This document shows positions 5,166 through 51,941 of a DNA stretch of 64,000 nt, piece after piece (within the stretch, counting starts at the first letter, position 1; every line of letters starts with the position of its first letter). Source of the stretch: Conchocele bisecta (lineage: Eukaryota; Mollusca; Bivalvia; Lucinida; Thyasiridae); contig CM055266.1 of assembly GCA_029237695.1 (NCBI GenBank), positions 108,083,370 to 108,147,369 on the forward strand, written 5' to 3'. The notes beneath the pieces are model-generated. The model was not told where the DNA came from, ran no database searches, and saw only the letters and a list, made by a program, of their open reading frames with translations. The position numbers and the translations under genes are program-made.

Positions 5166-5730
5166 TGGCTTTTTGCACCTTCTCAGTCGCAGTGTACAGT
5201 GGATGTTGACACAATCTTCAAACAACACCCCACCCCCGTGGCAATTAGAGCAACTAATTTTCCCACTGCTGTCACCCCGGGCTTTCCTTAAATGACCCCA
5301 TGTACAGTATTGTTTCTTTGTAAGTGGACAATGTCCGGGAGGGGGGCGGGGGGATTTTGTCCGTATCCCATTTTGTCACCCACTGTCGCATTTCAGTATG
5401 TAGTCTGTAGCTAGGTCATTCTTATATTTTTACAGTACAGTCCCATTTATATCAGCGGTCTAATAAACTGGAGTTTTAAGTAGTCTGTTGATAAGTAGTC
5501 TGTTAATAATCATATTATGCATACATTTCGGATGTTCTACTGATACGTCATATACCCATGTGACCGCGAAGTTAGTCATGCAGTGACGGCTGGAAAAACT
5601 TGTTGTCCGGAATATGAAATCCGTAAAATAACGGCACATACTGATCGGATTACTGTAAAAAAAATTTTATTTGATATACAATTGATGAATACATAAGCGT
5701 ATCGCGAAAACAGAAGCTTGTTATATCTGG
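5166..5730. other. No gene seen
   Basis: Intergenic sequence with a G-run at 5339-5352 and an AT-rich stretch. No exon, RNA gene or recognised repeat could be supported. Confidence 0.4.
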
Positions 5731-5745
5731 GGGTGGGGGGGGGGG

Positions 5746-5808
<63 letters not shown>

Positions 5809-5824
5809 GGGGGGTGGGGGGTGT
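5731..5824. repeat. Very long G homopolymer tract
   Basis: About 90 bases are nearly pure G on the plus strand, with a few A or T interruptions only near the edges. On the minus strand it reads as a poly-proline frame, which I regard as spurious. Tracts this long form G-quadruplexes and are unreliable in sequencing and assembly, so the true length may differ. Confidence 0.9.
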
Positions 5825-11241: not shown

Positions 11242-11361
11242 ATTCCGCGTCGAGAAGTCCACCGGACGTATGACCGGATATACGCGGCATTATACGGCCA
11301 CTGTGTCGGCGATGCCATTGGTCTGCTCACGGAGGGCCTCACACGAGATGAGGTGAAAAAG
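11242..11361 (+). CDS. ADP-ribosylglycohydrolase, exon with first family motif
   Basis: The acceptor is TTTTCCATGTCAG ending at 11241 and the donor is AAG followed by GTAAGTAAC. It is 40 codons long, phase 0 at both ends. It encodes IPRREVHRTYDRIYAALYGH followed by CVGDAIGLLTEGLTRDEVKK. The G-x(3)-G-D-A-x-G-x(3)-E arrangement (G19, G23, D24, E31 counting from this exon) is the N-terminal signature of ARH/DraG proteins. It lies at the start of the all-helical fold, near the metal site. The next exon is 12.7 kb downstream, past a large transposon-like insertion. Confidence 0.88.
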
Positions 11362-11373
11362 GTAAGTAACAAA

Positions 11374-11430
11374 TTAGGGGCCCCATTTCACTAAAGTTTG
11401 TTCAATAAAATGTTTGTACAAATGCAATTA
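11374..11430 (+). repeat. M5-like left-end fragment
   Basis: GGGGCCCCATTTCACTAAAG followed by TTTGTTCAATAAAATGTTTG resembles the left arm of M5 (see 62162-62407). It starts only 12 bp after the exon donor. The matching right arm may be the one at 12515-12664. Confidence 0.45.
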
Positions 11431-26349: not shown

Positions 26350-26504
26350 GCCTCAGAGATGGTATGGCGAGACTCGGGTAAATTCATCGCCAGTAACAGC
26401 GCCGTGGCCCGGACGGCTATACTCGGTGTACATCAGTATGCAACACTAGGACAGGTCATCAAAAACACCTTAGACATGTGCAAGGTCACACACTTCGACC
26501 CCAG
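26350..26504 (+). CDS. ADP-ribosylglycohydrolase, exon ending in THFDPR
   Basis: The acceptor GTCTTTTTAG ends at 26349; the donor is CCCCAG followed by GTAAGG. It has 51 codons plus two bases (phase 2). It encodes ASEMVWRDSGKFIASNSAVA followed by RTAILGVHQYATLGQVIKNT and LDMCKVTHFDP, with the Arg codon split across the intron. S-N-x-A-x-x-R and T-H-x-D-P-R are family motifs that build the ADP-ribose pocket. The next exon supplies the last base of AGA and continues CQASCVAVV, which proves this donor is the one that keeps the frame. The last 15 bases of the exon plus the donor are the source of the downstream 25-bp minisatellite. Confidence 0.93.
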
Positions 26505-27375
26505 GTAAGGTCACCCACTTCGACCCCAGGTAAGGTTACACTCTTCGACCCCAGATATCGTCACACACTTCGACCACAGGTAAGGTCACACACTTCGACC
26601 CCAGGTAAGGTCATACACTCGACCCCAGGTAAGGTTACACTCTTCAACCCCAGATATCGTCACACACTTCGACCACAGGTAAGGTCATGTACTTCGACCC
26701 CAGCTAAGGTCACACATTTCGACCCCAGGTAAGGTTATGCACTTCAACCCTGGTAAGGTCACACACTTTTACCCCAGGTAAGGTCATGCACTACGACCCT
26801 AGGTAAGGTCATGCACTTCGACCCCAGGTAAGGTCACATACTTCGACCCCAGGTAAGGTCACACACTTCTACCCCAGGTAAGGTCACACACTTCGACCCC
26901 AGGTAAGGTCACACACTTCGACCCCAGGTAAGGTCACGCACTTCCACCCCAGGTAAGGTCACACACTTCGACCCCAGGTAAGGTCACACACTTTTACCCC
27001 AGGTAAGGTCACACACTTCGACCCCAGGTAAGGTTACACACTTCAACCCCAGATATGGTGACACTCTTCGACCCCAGATATCGTCACACACTTCGACCAC
27101 AGGTAAGGTCACACACTTCGACCCCAGGTAAGGTCATACACTCGACCCCAGGTAAGGTTACACACTTCAACCCCAGATATGGTTACACAGTTCAACCCCA
27201 GGTAAGGTCATTCACTTCAAACCTGGTAAGGTCACGCTTTGACCCCAGGTAAGGTCATGCACTACAACCCTAGGTAAGGTTATGCACTTCGACCCCAGGT
27301 ACGGTCACGCACTTCCACCCCAGGTAAGGTCACGCTCTTCAACCTCAGGTAAGGTCATGCACTTCGACCCCAAGT
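26490..27375 (+). repeat. 25-bp minisatellite made of exon end plus splice donor
   Basis: Unit: AAGGTCACACACTTCGACCC followed by CAGGT, roughly 35 units with small changes (some 24-26 bp). The first unit is the exon's own end (codons for KVTHFDP and R) and its GTAAGGT donor. Every good unit therefore repeats CCCCAG/GTAAGGT, a consensus 5' splice site. A unit of 25 bp shifts the frame by one per copy. Units also hold AGGTCAC half-sites. Confidence 0.95.
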
Positions 27376-27711
27376 AAGGTAGCGCAATTTTACCACATCG
27401 GCAACATATTTTAACACCAGTTGGACACTTGATGTAATAAAACATGGAACTTCATTTGAAGATTATATGCTACCCATTATGCAACTCCATGGCAAAAAGA
27501 GACTTCGTATTTCGCACTGGAGTCGTACAGTTCCTTGAATATTTGAATATTGAACGCTATTGAAAACCCTACGATTATTTTCATGATGGGGTGCGTATTA
27601 TTATCAGGTAATTTCCTATGCATTGACCAAATAGATTCTGACTGATAACAAATTGTATCCTGCATTGATCACCACAACTACTTTCTGTCGTTGCATTGAT
27701 CAAACAGCATT
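27376..27711. other. Intron remainder, nothing recognised
   Basis: AT-rich sequence without exon signals or recognised repeats. Confidence 0.4.
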
Positions 27712-27958
27712 ATATGTGGCAGTGACAGGAGAAATGGGGCTTATGGCATTTAAGACCAGTGTAGCTCCAGATCAAATAGCACACTCTTGTAGCCTGAAAA
27801 CGATCTAGTGTTTGTTAGAAGCATGACTGGTGTTTAATTGTTGGAATGGCGACCAGTGTAGTTGCCGATGAGACTGTGCAGCTGCACTGGCTGATCTGGA
27901 TCTACACTGGTCAAAAAACACATAAGCCTGATTTCTCCAGTCACAATTGCATATTGTA
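27712..27958 (+). mobile_element. M1 foldback MITE
   Basis: TGTGGCAGTGACAGGAGAAA at the left and TTTCTCCAGTCACAATTGCA at the right. It has CCAGTGTAGCTCCAGATCAA, AGCATGACTGGTG and CTGGATCTACACTGGTC. Confidence 0.82.
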
Positions 27959-28102
27959 TTACTGAATGACGTTAGTGTCTTGACGTAATGTAACAAGTCC
28001 ACTTTCTTTATTTGCCCATTCTCTAGCATAAAACGTTACAACGGAATTCCTTGACGAGCCTCGGAATGTGTTTCCTAGCCGTGTCTGATAAATCAAACGA
28101 CA

Positions 28103-29017
28103 CTACTGTCTGTTCCATGTTTTGCTGCTGACGAACATTTGGCTATTAAACGCATTAAATCTAAAAAAATATTAAAATGTATCATCGATAACAAAAATCA
28201 CTCTCCACACATTTTTTTATTTGATGAAATTCCGTCAAATGTTGTTTTTATTGCGAACAAAATATTTTCCTATGTGGCAAAAAGGAGGTGTAGAGTGAGG
28301 GTAGAAAAATGAAAAAAAAATTGGAAAGTGACTCCAAAACCTGCTTAGATAGTTTGGTAATGATGTAACTAAAAAATAAGTCCTCAAATTGAAAATTTCA
28401 CAAATTCAATTTTTAGCCCCTCTGTTAAATTCCCTTAGAAAAATTATATTTTTATGCCTCACCACAATAGTGGAGGAGGCATTTTATAGTGTTACCGTTG
28501 TCCGTCCGTCATCAACCTTGTAAGTCGTAAAACTTTTAAACAGTACTATCTACAGACTTGAAACTTGGTATGTAGCTTCCTTATGATGAGTAGATGCGCA
28601 ACATTTATGATTTATTTCAATTTTTTATTTGACCCCCGGGTCATGGATTATCTCCCCCTTTGCGACTTATAATTTGGCAATTTTGCCTTGTAACTTTTAA
28701 AACTTTCAAACCGTAATAGCTACAGACCTGAAACTTGGTATGTAGTTTCCTTGTGATGAGTAGAGTTTAGTTTATTTTGACCTTTGGACTTGGAATTTTG
28801 CCTCGTTTATTATCAAAGCGGTATGTGGGGCATCTGTGTTCTATGAACACGTTTTCTAATCCCTATAAAATCAATATTTTTTGGAATTTCATCATTTAAC
28901 AAATTTGGAGGGTGACTTGTTATTGATAAAAAAGTACTTACGTTTAAATATTGCTTACATTTAATGTGTTTAATAGCCAAAAGTTTGTCGGCAGCAAAAC
29001 ATGGAACAGACAAGTAG
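28103..29017. mobile_element. Family Y TIR element, ending at an exon
   Basis: CTACTGTCTGTTCCATGTTT then TGCTGCTGACGAACATTTGG at the left face CCAAAAGTTTGTCGGCAGCA then AAACATGGAACAGACAAG at the right; the arms are about 50 bp. It is related to 61136-61674. A rolling-circle-like element is nested inside. The right end lies about 21 bp before the exon at 29039, so its tip supplies the upstream side of the acceptor. Confidence 0.72.
28452..28859 (+). mobile_element. Rolling-circle-like element, family B, nested in family Y
   Basis: It starts TTATGCCTCACCACAATAGT with inverted GGAGGAGGCAT, then GTCCGTCCGTC. Two core units have ACAGACTTGAAACTTGGTAT and GTAGCTTCCTTATGATGAGT. The 3' hairpin is GTGTTCTATGAACAC, then GTTTTCTAA (CTAG decayed to CTAA). 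Confidence 0.78.
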
Positions 29018-29038
29018 CATGGTATTCTCCATTTACAG

Positions 29039-29192
29039 ATGCCAGGCGTCGTGTGTTGCCGTGGTGACGGCCATTGCACTCATGTTACAGAAGGGAGATA
29101 AGCATGTCAAAAAGAACGGCAACTTCAACGTAGAATCTGTGATAGACGAATGTTTCACATACTCGTCGCGACTACTGGAGACATTAAAGGAG
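29039..29192 (+). CDS. ADP-ribosylglycohydrolase, exon after the THFDPR motif
   Basis: The acceptor TCTCCATTTACAG ends at 29038; the donor is GAG followed by GTACAG. It is one base (completing Arg) plus 51 codons. It encodes CQASCVAVVTAIALMLQKGD followed by KHVKKNGNFNVESVIDECFT and YSSRLLETLKE. In the family the DPR-x-x-A-S-C-x-A-V-x-x-A stretch is a long helix lining the active site. The phase match with the exon ending at 26504 fixes both splice sites. The polypyrimidine tract is short, and a family Y element ends just upstream. Confidence 0.9.
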
Positions 29193-46321: not shown

Positions 46322-47013
46322 CGAACACGCATATACGCATTGCTCTAATGGTCCTCTACCGCCCTGTGCCAAATCCACGTTCGTTCTGCCCCCGTCAAGC
46401 CCAGGGTCAAGGTCACATACTTAGTGCTTCAAAAAAAATTAACGCTTGGGTAAATATCTTATACTTTCTGTTTTCTTTCATGGATCATGGATCATCTTCA
46501 TATTTCATATACGCATTGCTCTAATGGTCCTCTACCGCCCTGTGCCAAATCCACGTTCGTCCTGCCCCACCAATCCCAGGGTCAAGGTCACATACTTGGT
46601 GCTTCAAAAACTTTAACGCTCAGGTAAATATCTTATAATTTTTAATTTTTATTTCCATTCACGGATCAACTTCATATTTCATATACGCGTTGCTCTAATG
46701 GTCGTCTACCGCCCTGTGCCAAATCCACGTTCGTCCTGCCCCCGCCAAGCCCAGGTCAAGGTCACATACTTAGTGCTTCAAAAACTTTTTTAACGCTCGG
46801 GTAAATATCTTATAATTTCTGTTTTCTTTCATGGATCATCTTCATATTTCATATACGCATTGCTCTAATGGTCCTCTACCGCCCTGTGCCAAATACACGT
46901 TCGTCCTGCCCCGCCAATCCCAGGGTCAAGTCACATACTTGGTGCTTCAAAAACTTTAATGCTCAGGTAAATATCTTATAATTTTTCTTTCCATTCACGG
47001 ATCAACTTCATAT
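46322..47013 (+). repeat. Family E tandem units, left block
   Basis: Units of about 165-185 bp: TACGCATTGCTCTAATGGTC, CCGCCCTGTGCCAAATCCAC, CAGGGTCAAGGTCACATACT and TGGTGCTTCAAAAACTTTAA. It resumes at 48754 after the family A insertion and ends at 49130 with GTGTTCTATGAACAC then ATTTTCTAG. No clear 5' end is visible at 46322, where family D text changes into it. Confidence 0.8.
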
Positions 47014-48753
47014 TTATGCCCCCGCCACTGAATGGTGAGGGGGGCATATAGTGTTACCGGCGTCCGTACTTCGTACGTACTTACGTACGTACGTACGTAC
47101 TTCGAAACGTCCCAAACCTTAAAACGCTGGGTAAATGGCTTATAATTTCTGTTTCCTTGCTCGGATCTGCTTCACATTTCACACAGCATTGCTCCAATGG
47201 TCCCTACGCTGTGACAAATCCACATTCGGTCCCGCCCCCGCTAAGCCCCAGGGTCAAGTCACAGACTTGGTGCATTCGAACCTTAACGCTGGGTAAATGG
47301 CTTATAATTCTGTTTCTTGCTCGGACTGCTTCACATTTCACACACTCGCATTGCTCCAATGGTCCTCTACCGCCCTGTGACAAATCCACATTCGTCCCGC
47401 CCCCGCTAAGCCCAGGGTCAAGGTCACAGACTTGGTGCATTCAAAAACCTTAACGCTGGTGGTTAAATGGCTTATAATTTCTGTTTCCTTGCTCGGATCT
47501 GCTTCACATTTCACACACGCATTGCTCCAATGGTCCTCTACGCCCTGTGACAAATCCACATTCGTCCCGCCCCGCTAAGCCCCAGGGTGAAGGTCACGAT
47601 TTGGTGCGTTCGAAACCTTAACGCTGGGTAAATGGCTTAATAAATTTTCTGTTTCCGTTCCCCCGCTCAGATCTGCTTCAACATTTCACACACGCATTGC
47701 TCCAATCGTCCCCTCCTACCGCCTGTGACAAACCTTCACATTCGTCCGCCCCCGCTAAGCCCAGGTCAAGGTCACAGGAACTTATTGCTTTGAAACCTTT
47801 AACGCTGGGTAAATGGCCTTATAATTTTCCTGTTTCCTTGCTCGATCTGCTTCACATTTCACACATGCATTGCTCCAATGGTCCTCTAACCGCCCTGTGA
47901 CAAATCCACATTCGTCCCGCCCCGCTAAAGCCCAGGGTCAAGGTCACAGACTTGGTGCATTCAAAACCTTAACGCTGGGTAAATGGCTTATATTTAATTT
48001 CTGTTTTCCCATAGCTCGGATCTGCTTCACATTTCATTCACATTTCACACACGCATTGCTCCAATGGTCCTCTACCGCCCTGTGACAAATCCACATTCGT
48101 CCCGCCTCCGCTAAGCCCAGGGTCAAGGTCACAGACTTGGTGTGTTCGAAACCTTAACGCTGGGTAAATGGCTTATAATTTCTGTTTCCTTGCTCGGATC
48201 TGGTTCACATTTCACACACGCATTGCTCCAATCGTCCTCTACCGCCCTGTGACAAATCCACATTCGTCCCGCCCCCGCTAAGCCCAGGGTCAAGCTCACA
48301 GACTTGGTGCGTTCGAAACCTTAACGCTGGGTAAATGGCTTATAATTTCTGTTTGCTTGCTCGGATCTGCTTCACATTTCACACACGCATTGCTCCAATG
48401 GTCCTCTACCGCCCTGTCACAAATCCACATTCGTCCCGCCCCCCCCCCGCTAAGCCCAGGGTCAAGGTCACAGACTTGGTGCGTTCGAAACCTTAACGCT
48501 CGGGTAAATGGCTTGTAATTTCTGTGTCCTTATTCGGATCTGCGTCACATTTCTCACACACATTGCTCCAATGCTCCTCTACCGCCCTGTGACAAATCCA
48601 CATTCATCCCGCCCCCGCTAAACCCAGGGTCAAGGTCACAGACTTGGTGCGTTCGAAACCTTAACGCTCGGGTAAATGACTTATAATCAAATATGCCTCG
48701 TTTTCTTTAGCTGCCAGCGGGGGCATTCGTGTGCCGACAGGCCACATTTCTAG
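47014..48753 (+). mobile_element. Rolling-circle-like element, family A, copy A1, nested in family E
   Basis: TTATGCCCCCGCCACTGAAT and inverted GGGGGGCATA, then an ACGT microsatellite. About 9-10 core units of roughly 165 bp have CACACGCATTGCTCCAATGG, GTGACAAATCCACATTCGTC and CAGGGTCAAGGTCACAGACT. The 3' end has GGGGGCATTCGTGTGCCGAC, AGGCCACATTTCTAG. The flanking text CTTCATAT and TTCATATATGCG rejoins into the family E unit, placing the insertion between two T. Confidence 0.88.
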
Positions 48754-49130: not shown

Positions 49131-49529
49131 TTTATTAAACTTCACACATGCATAGAAGACGACCCAAAGGTGTGTCGCACGTAAGAATGACAACTCTTGC
49201 GTCGTTAATTTCTTAGTTATCTCCCTTTGTTGTTTCGTGCACTGATTTCGTGTCTGGAGCATAACTCGAACACCCTTTGGAATATTTTCATGAAACTTCA
49301 CACATGCATAGACCACGACCCTAAAGGTGTGTCCCGCAAGAATGACAACTCTTGCATCACCAATTCTTTAGTTATCTCCCTTTGTTTTTCCGTCACTGAT
49401 TTTGTCTCCGGAGCATAACTCGAACACCCTTTTTTCAAACTACTTGTGTATCTGGGGAGGGGGATACACATGCGCTTGTCGACAAGCGTCCATTTCTAGT
49501 TAATACCTGTGTTTGCCCCATGTCGACAG

Positions 49530-49660
49530 GGCGGAGATGCAGACGCGAACGGAGCGGTGGCGGGCGCCCTACTGGGGTGTAAGCTGGGCCTGGACGCGAT
49601 CCCGCGGTCCTGGGTGGAGAACCTCGCACACCGGGCCTGGCTCGACGACCTTGTAGACAG
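49530..49660 (+). CDS. ADP-ribosylglycohydrolase, exon with GGDADANG metal motif
   Basis: The acceptor TTTGCCCCATGTCGACAG ends at 49529; the donor is GACAG followed by GTGGGT. It has 43 codons plus two bases (phase 2). It encodes GGDADANGAVAGALLGCKLG then LDAIPRSWVENLAHRAWLDD and LVD plus a split Arg. GGD-x-D-T-x-x-x-x-x-A-G-A is the C-terminal metal loop of ARH/DraG. ARH3 uses Asp314, Asp316 and Thr317; here D297 and D299 are kept but the Thr position is Ala300 (GCG). The W-x-E-x-L segment is usual near the family's end, so only a short tail should follow. Confidence 0.93.
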
Positions 49661-50083: not shown

Positions 50084-51941
50084 TTATGCCCCCGCCACCG
50101 AATGGTGAGGGGGGCATATAGTGTTACCGGTGTCCGTACGTACGTACGTACGTACGTACGTACGTACGTCCCGAAACCTTAACGCTGGGTAAATGGCTTA
50201 TAATTTCTGTTTCCTTGCTCGGATCTGCTTCACATTTCACACACGCATTGCTCCAATGGTCCTCTACAGCCCTGTGACAAATCCACATTCGTCCCGCCCC
50301 CGATAAGCCCAGGGTCAAGGTCACAGACTTGGTGCTTTCGAACCTTAACGCTGGGTAAATGGCTTATAATTTCTGTTTCCTTGCTCAGATCTGCTTCACA
50401 TTTCACACACGCATTGCTCCAATGGTCCTCTACCGCCCTGTGACAAATCCATATTCGTCCCGCCCCCGATAAGCCCAGGGTCAAGGTCACAGACTTGGTG
50501 CTTTCGAAACCTTAACGCTGGGTAAATGGCTTATAATTTCTGTTTCCTTGCTCGGATCTGCTTCACATTTCACACACGCATTGCTCCAATGGGCCTCTAC
50601 AGCCCTGTGACAAATCCACATTCGTCCCGCCCCCGATAAGCCCAGGGTCAAGGTCACAGACTTGGTGCTTTCGAAACCTTAACGCTGGGTAAATGGCTTA
50701 TAATTTCTGTTTCCTTGCTCAGATCTGCTTCACATTTCACACACGCATTGCTCCAATGGTCCTCTACCGCCCTGTGACAAATCCACATTCGTCCCGCCCC
50801 CGATAAGCCCAGGGTCAAGGTCACAGACTTGGTGCTTTCGAAACCTTAACGCTGGGTAAATGGCTTATAATTTCTGTTTCCTTGCTCAGATCTGCTTCAC
50901 ATTTCACACACGCATTGCTCCAATGGTCCTCTACCGCCCTGTGACAAATCCACATTCGTCCCGCCCCCGATAAGCCCAGAGTCAAGGTCACAGACTTGGT
51001 GCTTTCGAAACCTTAACGCTGGGTAAATGGCTTATAATTTCTGTTTCCTTGCTCGGATCTGCTTCACATTTCACACACGCATTGCTCCAATGGTCCTCTA
51101 CAGCCCTGTGACAAATCCACATTCGTCCCGCCCCCGATAAGCCCAGGGTCAAGGTCACAGACTTGGTGCTTTCGAAACCTTAACGCTGGGTAAATGGCTT
51201 ATAATTTCTGTTTCCTTGCTCAGATCTGCTTCACATTTCACACACGCATTGCTCCAATGGTCCTCTACCGCCCTGTGACAAATCCACATTCGTCCCGCCC
51301 CGATAAGCCCAGGGTCAAGGTCACAGACTTGGTGCTTTCGAAACCTTAACGCTGGGTAAATGGCTTATAATTTCTGTTTCCTTGCTCGGATCTGCTTCAC
51401 ATTTCACACACGCATTGCTCCAATGGTCCGCTACCGCCCTCTGACAAATTCACATTTCGTCTCGCCCCCGCTAAGCCCAGGGTCAAGGTCACAGACTTGG
51501 TGCTTTTGAAACCTTAACGCTGGGTAAATGGCGTATAATTTCTGTTTCCTTGCTTAGATCTGCTTCACATTTCACACACACAGTGCTCCAATGGTCCTCT
51601 ACCATCCTGTGACAAATTCACATTTGTCCCGCCCCCGCTAAGCCCGGGGTCAAGGTCACAGACTTGGTGCATTTCAAACCTTAACGCTCGGGTAAATGGC
51701 TTGTATTTCCTGTTTCCTTGCTCGGATCTGCTTCACATTTCACACACGCATTGCTCCAATGCTCCTCTACCGCCCTGTGACAAATCAACATTTGTCCCGC
51801 CTCCGCTTTGCCCAGGGTCAAGCTCACAGACTTGGTGCGTTCAAAACCTTAACGCTTGGGTAAATGGCTTATAATCAAATATGCCTCGTTTTCTTTGGCT
51901 GCCAGCGGGGGCATTCGTGTGCCGACAGGCCACATTTCTAG
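50084..51941 (+). mobile_element. Rolling-circle-like element, family A, copy A2, nested in family R
   Basis: TTATGCCCCCGCCACCGAAT, GGGGGGCATATAGTGTTACC, then a pure ACGT run (50138-50169). About 10 very similar units of 167-169 bp follow (CAGATCTGCTTCACATTTCA, CCGATAAGCCCAGGGTCAAG), the last three more diverged. The end is GCCGACAGGCCACATTTCTA plus G. The flanks TACATTT and TCTGTAAAT rejoin to family R text, again between two T. Confidence 0.9.

Follow-up and report, generated by a model that had tools for sequence, protein, structure and literature searches.

How does a gene yield its protein when the end of one of its exons, splice donor included, is repeated dozens of times in tandem, and does the repetition do anything? 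The question arises in a 64,000-nt stretch of the Conchocele bisecta genome (the window), where a minisatellite leads out of an ADP-ribosylglycohydrolase exon into the following intron. We consider it likely that the array is a mirage, in essence neutral, from which the first donor is used.

The host exon (26350..26504, + strand; 155 nt; PF03747) ends in ...THFDP plus AG, in phase 2. It is followed by a phase-2 intron of 2534 nt (26505..29038, +), whose donor and acceptor were read from the sequence and whose junction is open, and by a 154-nt exon (29039..29192, +; CQASCVAVV...LLETLKE). An earlier reading of the window from its letters (the sequence-only reading) had fixed the junction as THFDPR followed by CQASCVAVV; this is correct, as the two exons join in an open frame, and their joint peptide matches PF03747 (ADP-ribosylglycohydrolase) with E=7.1e-11. 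Two further matches to the family stand in the correct order around the array exons. The first (11284..11379, +) covers PF03747 positions 1-32 below the cut-off (19.3 bits, E=0.97), in a frame open up to AAAAAG/GTAAGT, and the second (49524..49607, +) covers positions 259-286 above it (30.1 bits). These are probably early and late exons of the host gene.

A protein search of the genome returned three matches: the two array-flanking exons and a 40% identical locus on the same contig (L011), a distant paralogue that is uninterrupted at the position of the array intron. In three homologous open reading frames from other sources (P0001, P0002 and P0003), taken as raw frames, coding ends at the same residue as in the host exon, with no unit following; the breaks read THFDPR/FVFC, THPDPR/WVCW and THADPR/YDF...CR/CQASC, and each may be taken for an intron. 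Since these frames break at the same residue without the unit, the intron position looks older than the array. P0001, the closest relative (88% identical exon over half of the query), has a Phe codon, not TAA, after the final R; thus, the array unit is absent right after the exon end there. Creation of a new intron by duplication (the Rogers model) was considered and rejected, as the three homologous frames break there without an array. The genome as a whole gave 38 PF03747 matches, 31 of them over the cut-off, with clusters on C10 (G000:C10:73929769-76908774) and C4 and further matches on C3 and C895. Many of these matches hold the whole domain in one frame and some contain stops; an expanded, intronless set of ADP-ribosylglycohydrolase sequences apparently exists alongside the multi-exon members.

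Tandem Repeats Finder (TRF) reported one 25-bp array at 26482..27380 (+), with 36.2 copies of AAGGTCACACACTTCGACCCCAGGT, 83% matches and a score of 1182. The array begins within the host exon, bases 26482-26504 of unit 1 being exonic, and extends into the intron, so that its tandem unit spans the exon-intron boundary. The TRF array and the register of the units bear out the proposal that the minisatellite is made of an exon end and its splice donor. The unit had been described as the last 15 exon bases, the donor and a few intron bases, in an array starting at 26490. Its length of 25 bp stands, but the start is 26482 and, with the units aligned in register, each unit consists of the 23 last exon bases plus GT. 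Unit 1 is identical to the consensus, its first 23 bases being the last 23 of the exon. The word AAGGT is present in the exon (codons AAG GTC) and again past the donor GT, at a spacing of 25 bp; the AAGGT just past the first GT already opens unit 2 and matches that of the exon. A partial unit 37, again AAGGT (27376..27380, +), ends the array and was probably left over from the place where the intron originally began. Units recur in blocks at lags 21 and 19, with common changes and a common deletion: blocks inside units 3-14 resemble blocks inside units 23-33, a 1-bp deletion is common to both, and at lag 21 there are 12 shared derived states across 8 units. This internal block duplication is an indirect hint that array length may differ between alleles or tissues, as expected of a mirage. 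Within the limits of the search tool, we did not find the unit elsewhere in the genome, as all 10 matches to it lay within the host exon and the array.

The earlier estimate of about 35 copies was close, but not every copy restores CCCCAG/GTAAGGT, as had been claimed. According to the unit table, a GTA(A/C)GG donor is kept at 30 of 36 unit junctions, as CAGGTAAGG in 24 cases, CTGGTAAGG and TAGGTAAGG in two each, and CAGGTACGG and CAAGTAAGG in one each. GT is lost at the remaining six (five AGAT, one AGCT). The first donor, GTAAGG (26505..26510, +), is followed by 29 further strong donors at unit junctions within 26530..27379 (+), from a GT at 26530 to one at 27374 (CAAGTAAGG). The 64-kb window contains 25 copies of CAGGTAAGG, 24 of them inside the array, compared to a mean of 0.32 and a maximum of 2 in 100 dinucleotide shuffles. 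These 24 commonest donors are predicted to pair with the 5′ end of U1 at -11.5 kcal/mol; of the window's 3789 other + strand GTs, 0.1% pair as strongly. Thus, the array donors are strong and near-consensus, as the sequence-only reading had said.

Within the 35 intronic units, donor columns show 20 mismatches in 315 positions, while other columns show 68 in 560. Nine-column windows starting at columns 17, 18 and 22 are, at 18 mismatches each, as low as the donor columns; the column with the most variation holds the G of a CpG, and CpG decay accounts for part of the difference between donor and other columns. The mismatch pattern gives no clear sign of selection on the donors. RNA structure hiding donors was not seen in the 201 nt around the first donor (26440-26640; z = +1.17), where 184 of 200 shuffles folded at least as well as the real sequence.

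The phase of the intron decides which donors can give protein. With the junction CCC AG/GTAAGG, any transcript continuing through the first donor has the codons AGG TAA, and this in-frame TAA (26506..26508, +), found as the 1 TAA in the genome match, closes the stop-to-stop frame 26350-26508. When each of the 30 strong donors was joined to exon 29039-29192, only 26505 gave an open frame; the other 29 led to a stop immediately after THFDPR. Nine of the 30, including the first, are in frame by length, and the other eight still stop. Beyond 26505, 67 GTs were tested, strong and weak alike, and each leads to a stop at residue 53. As had been proposed, every unit moves the frame by one, but later donors do not restore it after a suitable number of units, since all retain AGG TAA. 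For the same reason, this gene cannot give the suggested isoform ladder with its KVTHFDPR-like inserts, none of the 29 later donors being open.

We propose that a tandem duplication across the exon-intron boundary produced the minisatellite, that the short direct repeat AAGGT may have seeded the first duplication, and that unequal exchange would then have enlarged the array; this last step is suggested by unit blocks that recur with shared changes and a shared deletion. As the upstream exon copy stays, each duplication would add intron only, provided the first donor is used, and the exon end could expand without protein change. The main splice would join 26505 to 29039, use of the first donor being expected because only 26505 gives an open frame. 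Slips to later donors would meet the stop after THFDPR and end in decay or a second splicing; mis-spliced RNA may be spliced again because runs of units begin with GT and end with AG. Function is unnecessary to account for the array.

A survey of a 200 kb genome sample and the window (220 TRF rows) found at least three donor words only in the ADP-ribosylglycohydrolase array. This survey was too small, as a whole-genome pattern scan (1.89 Gb, 1196 contigs) for CAGGTAAG occurring three times at 10-40 nt spacing then revealed other donor-word arrays, and the idea that the array is the only one of its kind was rejected. The scan returned 404 + 343 matches, compared to 101 + 319 for the word read backwards, counts that are inflated by long arrays. 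By our own count, the 100 triplet places listed make up at least 11 arrays, two on C1, eight on C2 and one at the start of C3, and stretches were fetched at the 10 other than ours. Protein homology up to the donor places five of the 11 listed arrays at exon ends. Besides the ADP-ribosylglycohydrolase array these are four fetched arrays in which the frame leading to the donor can be matched with a known protein as far as its final residue or almost so: KDM1A/LSD1 (L052, G000:C3:13000000-13001500, donor at 1150; PDB E 6e-28), an oxysterol-binding protein relative (ORP; L049; PF01237 E 1.5e-13), a metabotropic glutamate receptor-like protein (mGluR-like; L051; PDB E 5e-12) and GTF3C1 (L047; PDB E 4.4e-6, with no match in Pfam or the protein database).

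The repeated unit takes in exon sequence at KDM1A (CATCTCACAG) and ORP (CTACGAATTAGACAG), as judged by eye, and at the mGluR-like gene (GTCTCATTCAC), as judged by alignment; at GTF3C1 it takes in just a few exon bases by eye. At the mGluR-like locus the TRF array starts 224 nt past the donor, and the gap consists of degenerate copies of the unit, beginning with exon bases (alignment score 153, compared to at most 22 in 300 shuffles). The first donors at KDM1A and GTF3C1 are GTAGG and GTGAG, not GTAAG. ORP resembles the ADP-ribosylglycohydrolase array in having phase 2 and an immediate stop, and stops follow 47 nt past the donor at the mGluR-like gene, 39 nt at GTF3C1 and 59 nt at L045. At the KDM1A-like locus, an exon ending in GSHLT passes directly into a 24-bp donor-bearing minisatellite; the phase is 1, the unit keeps the frame, and no stop is met over the 317 nt after the donor (about 13 units), so that an in-frame ladder is possible there on paper. 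Donor triplets with this unit are listed as far as C3:13004024.

The other six listed arrays are without homology confirmation. L045 and L048 have an open frame to the donor, yet no family or structure match; L043 and L050 gave no Pfam match; and the stretch fetched at L046 lies almost wholly within the array. L044, also with no Pfam match, has a flank whose opposite strand carries a long open frame, and its CAGGTAAG is therefore probably not a donor. At L048 (G000:C2:64825300-64827600, reverse strand), a 42-bp donor-bearing unit is repeated 29.6 times (939-2186) and the frame is open 128 nt past the first donor; a different frame, further on, is open for 314 residues of KTYHAVVMFADISG-like repeats. 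L045 (G000:C2:19186300-19188600) and L046 (C2:20000300-20003800), 0.8 Mb apart, have a nearly identical unit, GTGTTGTGTCTCTATACAG/GTAAGGCA, suggesting that donor-bearing units may also spread between loci.

Donor-bearing arrays thus recur in the genome; enrichment at donors is not claimed. Counted by eye among the matches listed on C1 and C2, there were at least 10 CAGGTAAG arrays (two on C1, eight on C2) and at least five arrays of the control word GAATGGAC (three and two), with no excess of CAGGTAAG on C1 (2 compared to 3). The 200 kb sample contains the two words about equally often (6 and 7 times). Four of the 10 listed CAGGTAAG arrays on C1 and C2 are confirmed exon ends; on the assumption that about a quarter of CAGGTAAG words are true donors, this fits even seeding. 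Minisatellites of period 10-200 take up 25.7 kb of the 200 kb sample, which holds 20 merged arrays with period 18-48 and at least three copies. In a genome so rich in minisatellites, some arrays must land on donors. For another word, CAGGTGAG, at least 12 arrays were counted by eye among the matches listed on C1, and triplets gave 365 + 428 matches, compared to 157 + 361 for the reversed word; at two places on C1, series of these triplets extend over about 29 kb (G000:C1:103071119-103100129) and about 11 kb (C1:162571752-162582703).

Mirages are known in amphioxus from Adh3, the globins BflGb6 and BflGb9, PGBD5 and troponin C (PMC3087553, PMC3902484), the last two genes added by PMC3902484, and the cited passages report that they do not disturb splicing. 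As described there, they resemble the present array in being minisatellite-like tandem duplications across an exon-intron boundary, with short units (10-72 bp in Adh3), many repeats carrying AG/GT splice signals, and several genes of one genome affected. The array described here differs in size, with about 36 copies and 30 strong donors compared to the 6 and 3 units given for BflGb6 haplotypes, in lying in an ADP-ribosylglycohydrolase gene, and in being known from genome sequence alone. The kind is not limited to lancelets, as human genes in segmental duplications carry repeats at exon-intron boundaries, with 27 intron modifications, 66% of which also have a supported alternative transcript in the cited account (PMC2812944). 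The human repeats are likewise minisatellite expansions, with an average unit of 30 bp, and can activate cryptic splice sites; they average about four units and come with transcript evidence of changed splicing or novel introns (PMC2812944), whereas our array has about 36 units at a shared, older intron position and is seen in genomic DNA only.

Intron gain by tandem duplication, described for ATP2A1, fission yeast SPOG_01682/SOCG_00815 and potato RdRp (PMC4974935, PMC3629103), is similar in that duplicated splice-site sequence lets units act as intron ends, and in fission yeast the tandem repeats, 24 nt long, likewise lie within introns. In those cases, as the cited passages have it, a new intron arises, whereas here the position is shared by array-free frames and the intron only grew. 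On oestrogen receptor pre-mRNA, HMGA1a is reported to trap U1 at a pseudo-5′ splice site (PMC6002489). The likeness is in extra U1-pairing sites near a real donor; however, that trapping is at an upstream pseudo-site, and the present array has 29 extra sites downstream, with predicted pairing only. Judged by title and the start of the abstract, the papers listed on minisatellites and splice donors and on recursive splicing and tandem repeats included nothing similar, and among the papers listed for bivalves or molluscs there was no report of a mollusc mirage. The kind is already published, and the present array is a long, donor-dense addition to it.

For the neutral reading we count the unit register, the single protein-giving donor, the block structure, the intron position common to unit-free relatives and the recurrence in other genes, together with the lack of shown donor conservation or RNA fold, the minisatellite-rich genome and the reportedly normal splicing of amphioxus mirages. 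Against it, that cells simply ignore up to 30 strong donors is not obvious. The cited report that human boundary repeats change splicing (PMC2812944) makes neutrality less safe to assume and lowered our confidence from high to somewhat less high. A C. elegans minisatellite is described as over-represented near multiple alternative splicing (PMC4039745), and factors are reported that can tip the choice between two competing donors towards the intron-proximal one (PMC5585400); in our array this would select the last donors, which are non-coding.

One rival reading is that the array is a tuned U1 trap for regulated unproductive splicing, which we hold to be improbable. Abundant U1 or its helpers would let later donors win, bringing the stop after THFDPR and a lower enzyme level, a scheme to which we give the same low standing. 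The number and predicted pairing strength of the donors (30, with 24 at -11.5 kcal/mol), the identical stop from all 29 later ones and the altered splicing at human boundary repeats (PMC2812944) fit such a trap. However, the donor columns are not uniquely conserved and GT is lost at six of 36 junctions, any phase-2 intron starting with GTAA gives a stop, so that the stop, also seen at ORP, is no evidence of design, and the splicing of amphioxus mirages is described as normal (PMC3087553). Nothing in the present analysis supports the donor trap put forward by the sequence-only reading. There is a similarly small chance that donor-seeded minisatellites form a large set in the genome and that some are used, with a ladder at KDM1A and expression dampers at phase-2 arrays. 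If so, the KDM1A-like locus could encode a chromatin enzyme in which GRVCPHLT-type inserts make up a graded ladder, phase-2 arrays such as that of the ADP-ribosylglycohydrolase gene would act as length-dependent dampers via unproductive splicing, and array length would be a heritable dial.

Less probable again is recursive or repeat splicing, in which the intron start would be removed stepwise or mis-spliced RNA mended by a second splicing. Most units read CCCCAG/GTAAGG, an acceptor followed immediately by a donor, and each of the five stretches that lead from the first donor to one of the next five begins with GT and ends with AG. The pyrimidine share before 12 array CAGs is 0.59-0.71, compared to 0.65 and 0.76 at two real acceptors, but this is a crude measure. 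Single 25-nt units are also too short to splice, and at least 2-3 units would be needed. It is very unlikely that the array matters as DNA, for instance through repeated AAGGTCA nuclear-receptor half-sites. The array does hold 24 of these, but the word is common, with 62 more in the window and 174 on both strands of the 200 kb sample, compared to about 24 expected if all bases were equally frequent, and the unit is already explained by coding sequence. An assembly artefact is more unlikely still: long tandem arrays are difficult to assemble, but many point changes and shared indels distinguish the units, similar arrays stand at other exon ends, and the junction structure would survive even a wrong copy number. 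We give almost no credence to a ladder of protein isoforms carrying repeated peptide inserts, conceivable on paper at the KDM1A-like array and possibly at L048 but excluded here by the sequence, with 0 of 29 later donors open.

With the neutral mirage as the favored reading, a known phenomenon gains a long, donor-dense case and recurs within one 1.89 Gb genome, where exons of conserved genes end (KDM1A, ORP, mGluR-like and GTF3C1). Such arrays, which vary in phase and unit length, place up to 30 near-identical donors in direct competition; as natural substrates they would let ordinary RNA data reveal how a 5′ splice site is chosen and how introns grow when exon ends are duplicated. The points of interest are the way in which the spliceosome handles 30 consecutive strong donors and whether in-frame arrays, KDM1A among them, put theirs to use; should 29 strong donors be ignored by cells, why this happens becomes a clean question, with exon size, first-come order, re-splicing and decay as candidates.

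The window contains other repeats. Two long arrays of period 167 lie at 46335-48687 and 50172-51875, with consensus units that share CGCATTGCTCCAATGGTCCTCTACCGCCCTG, and a 93-base, mostly-G run (91% matches to a G repeat) occupies 5729-5821.
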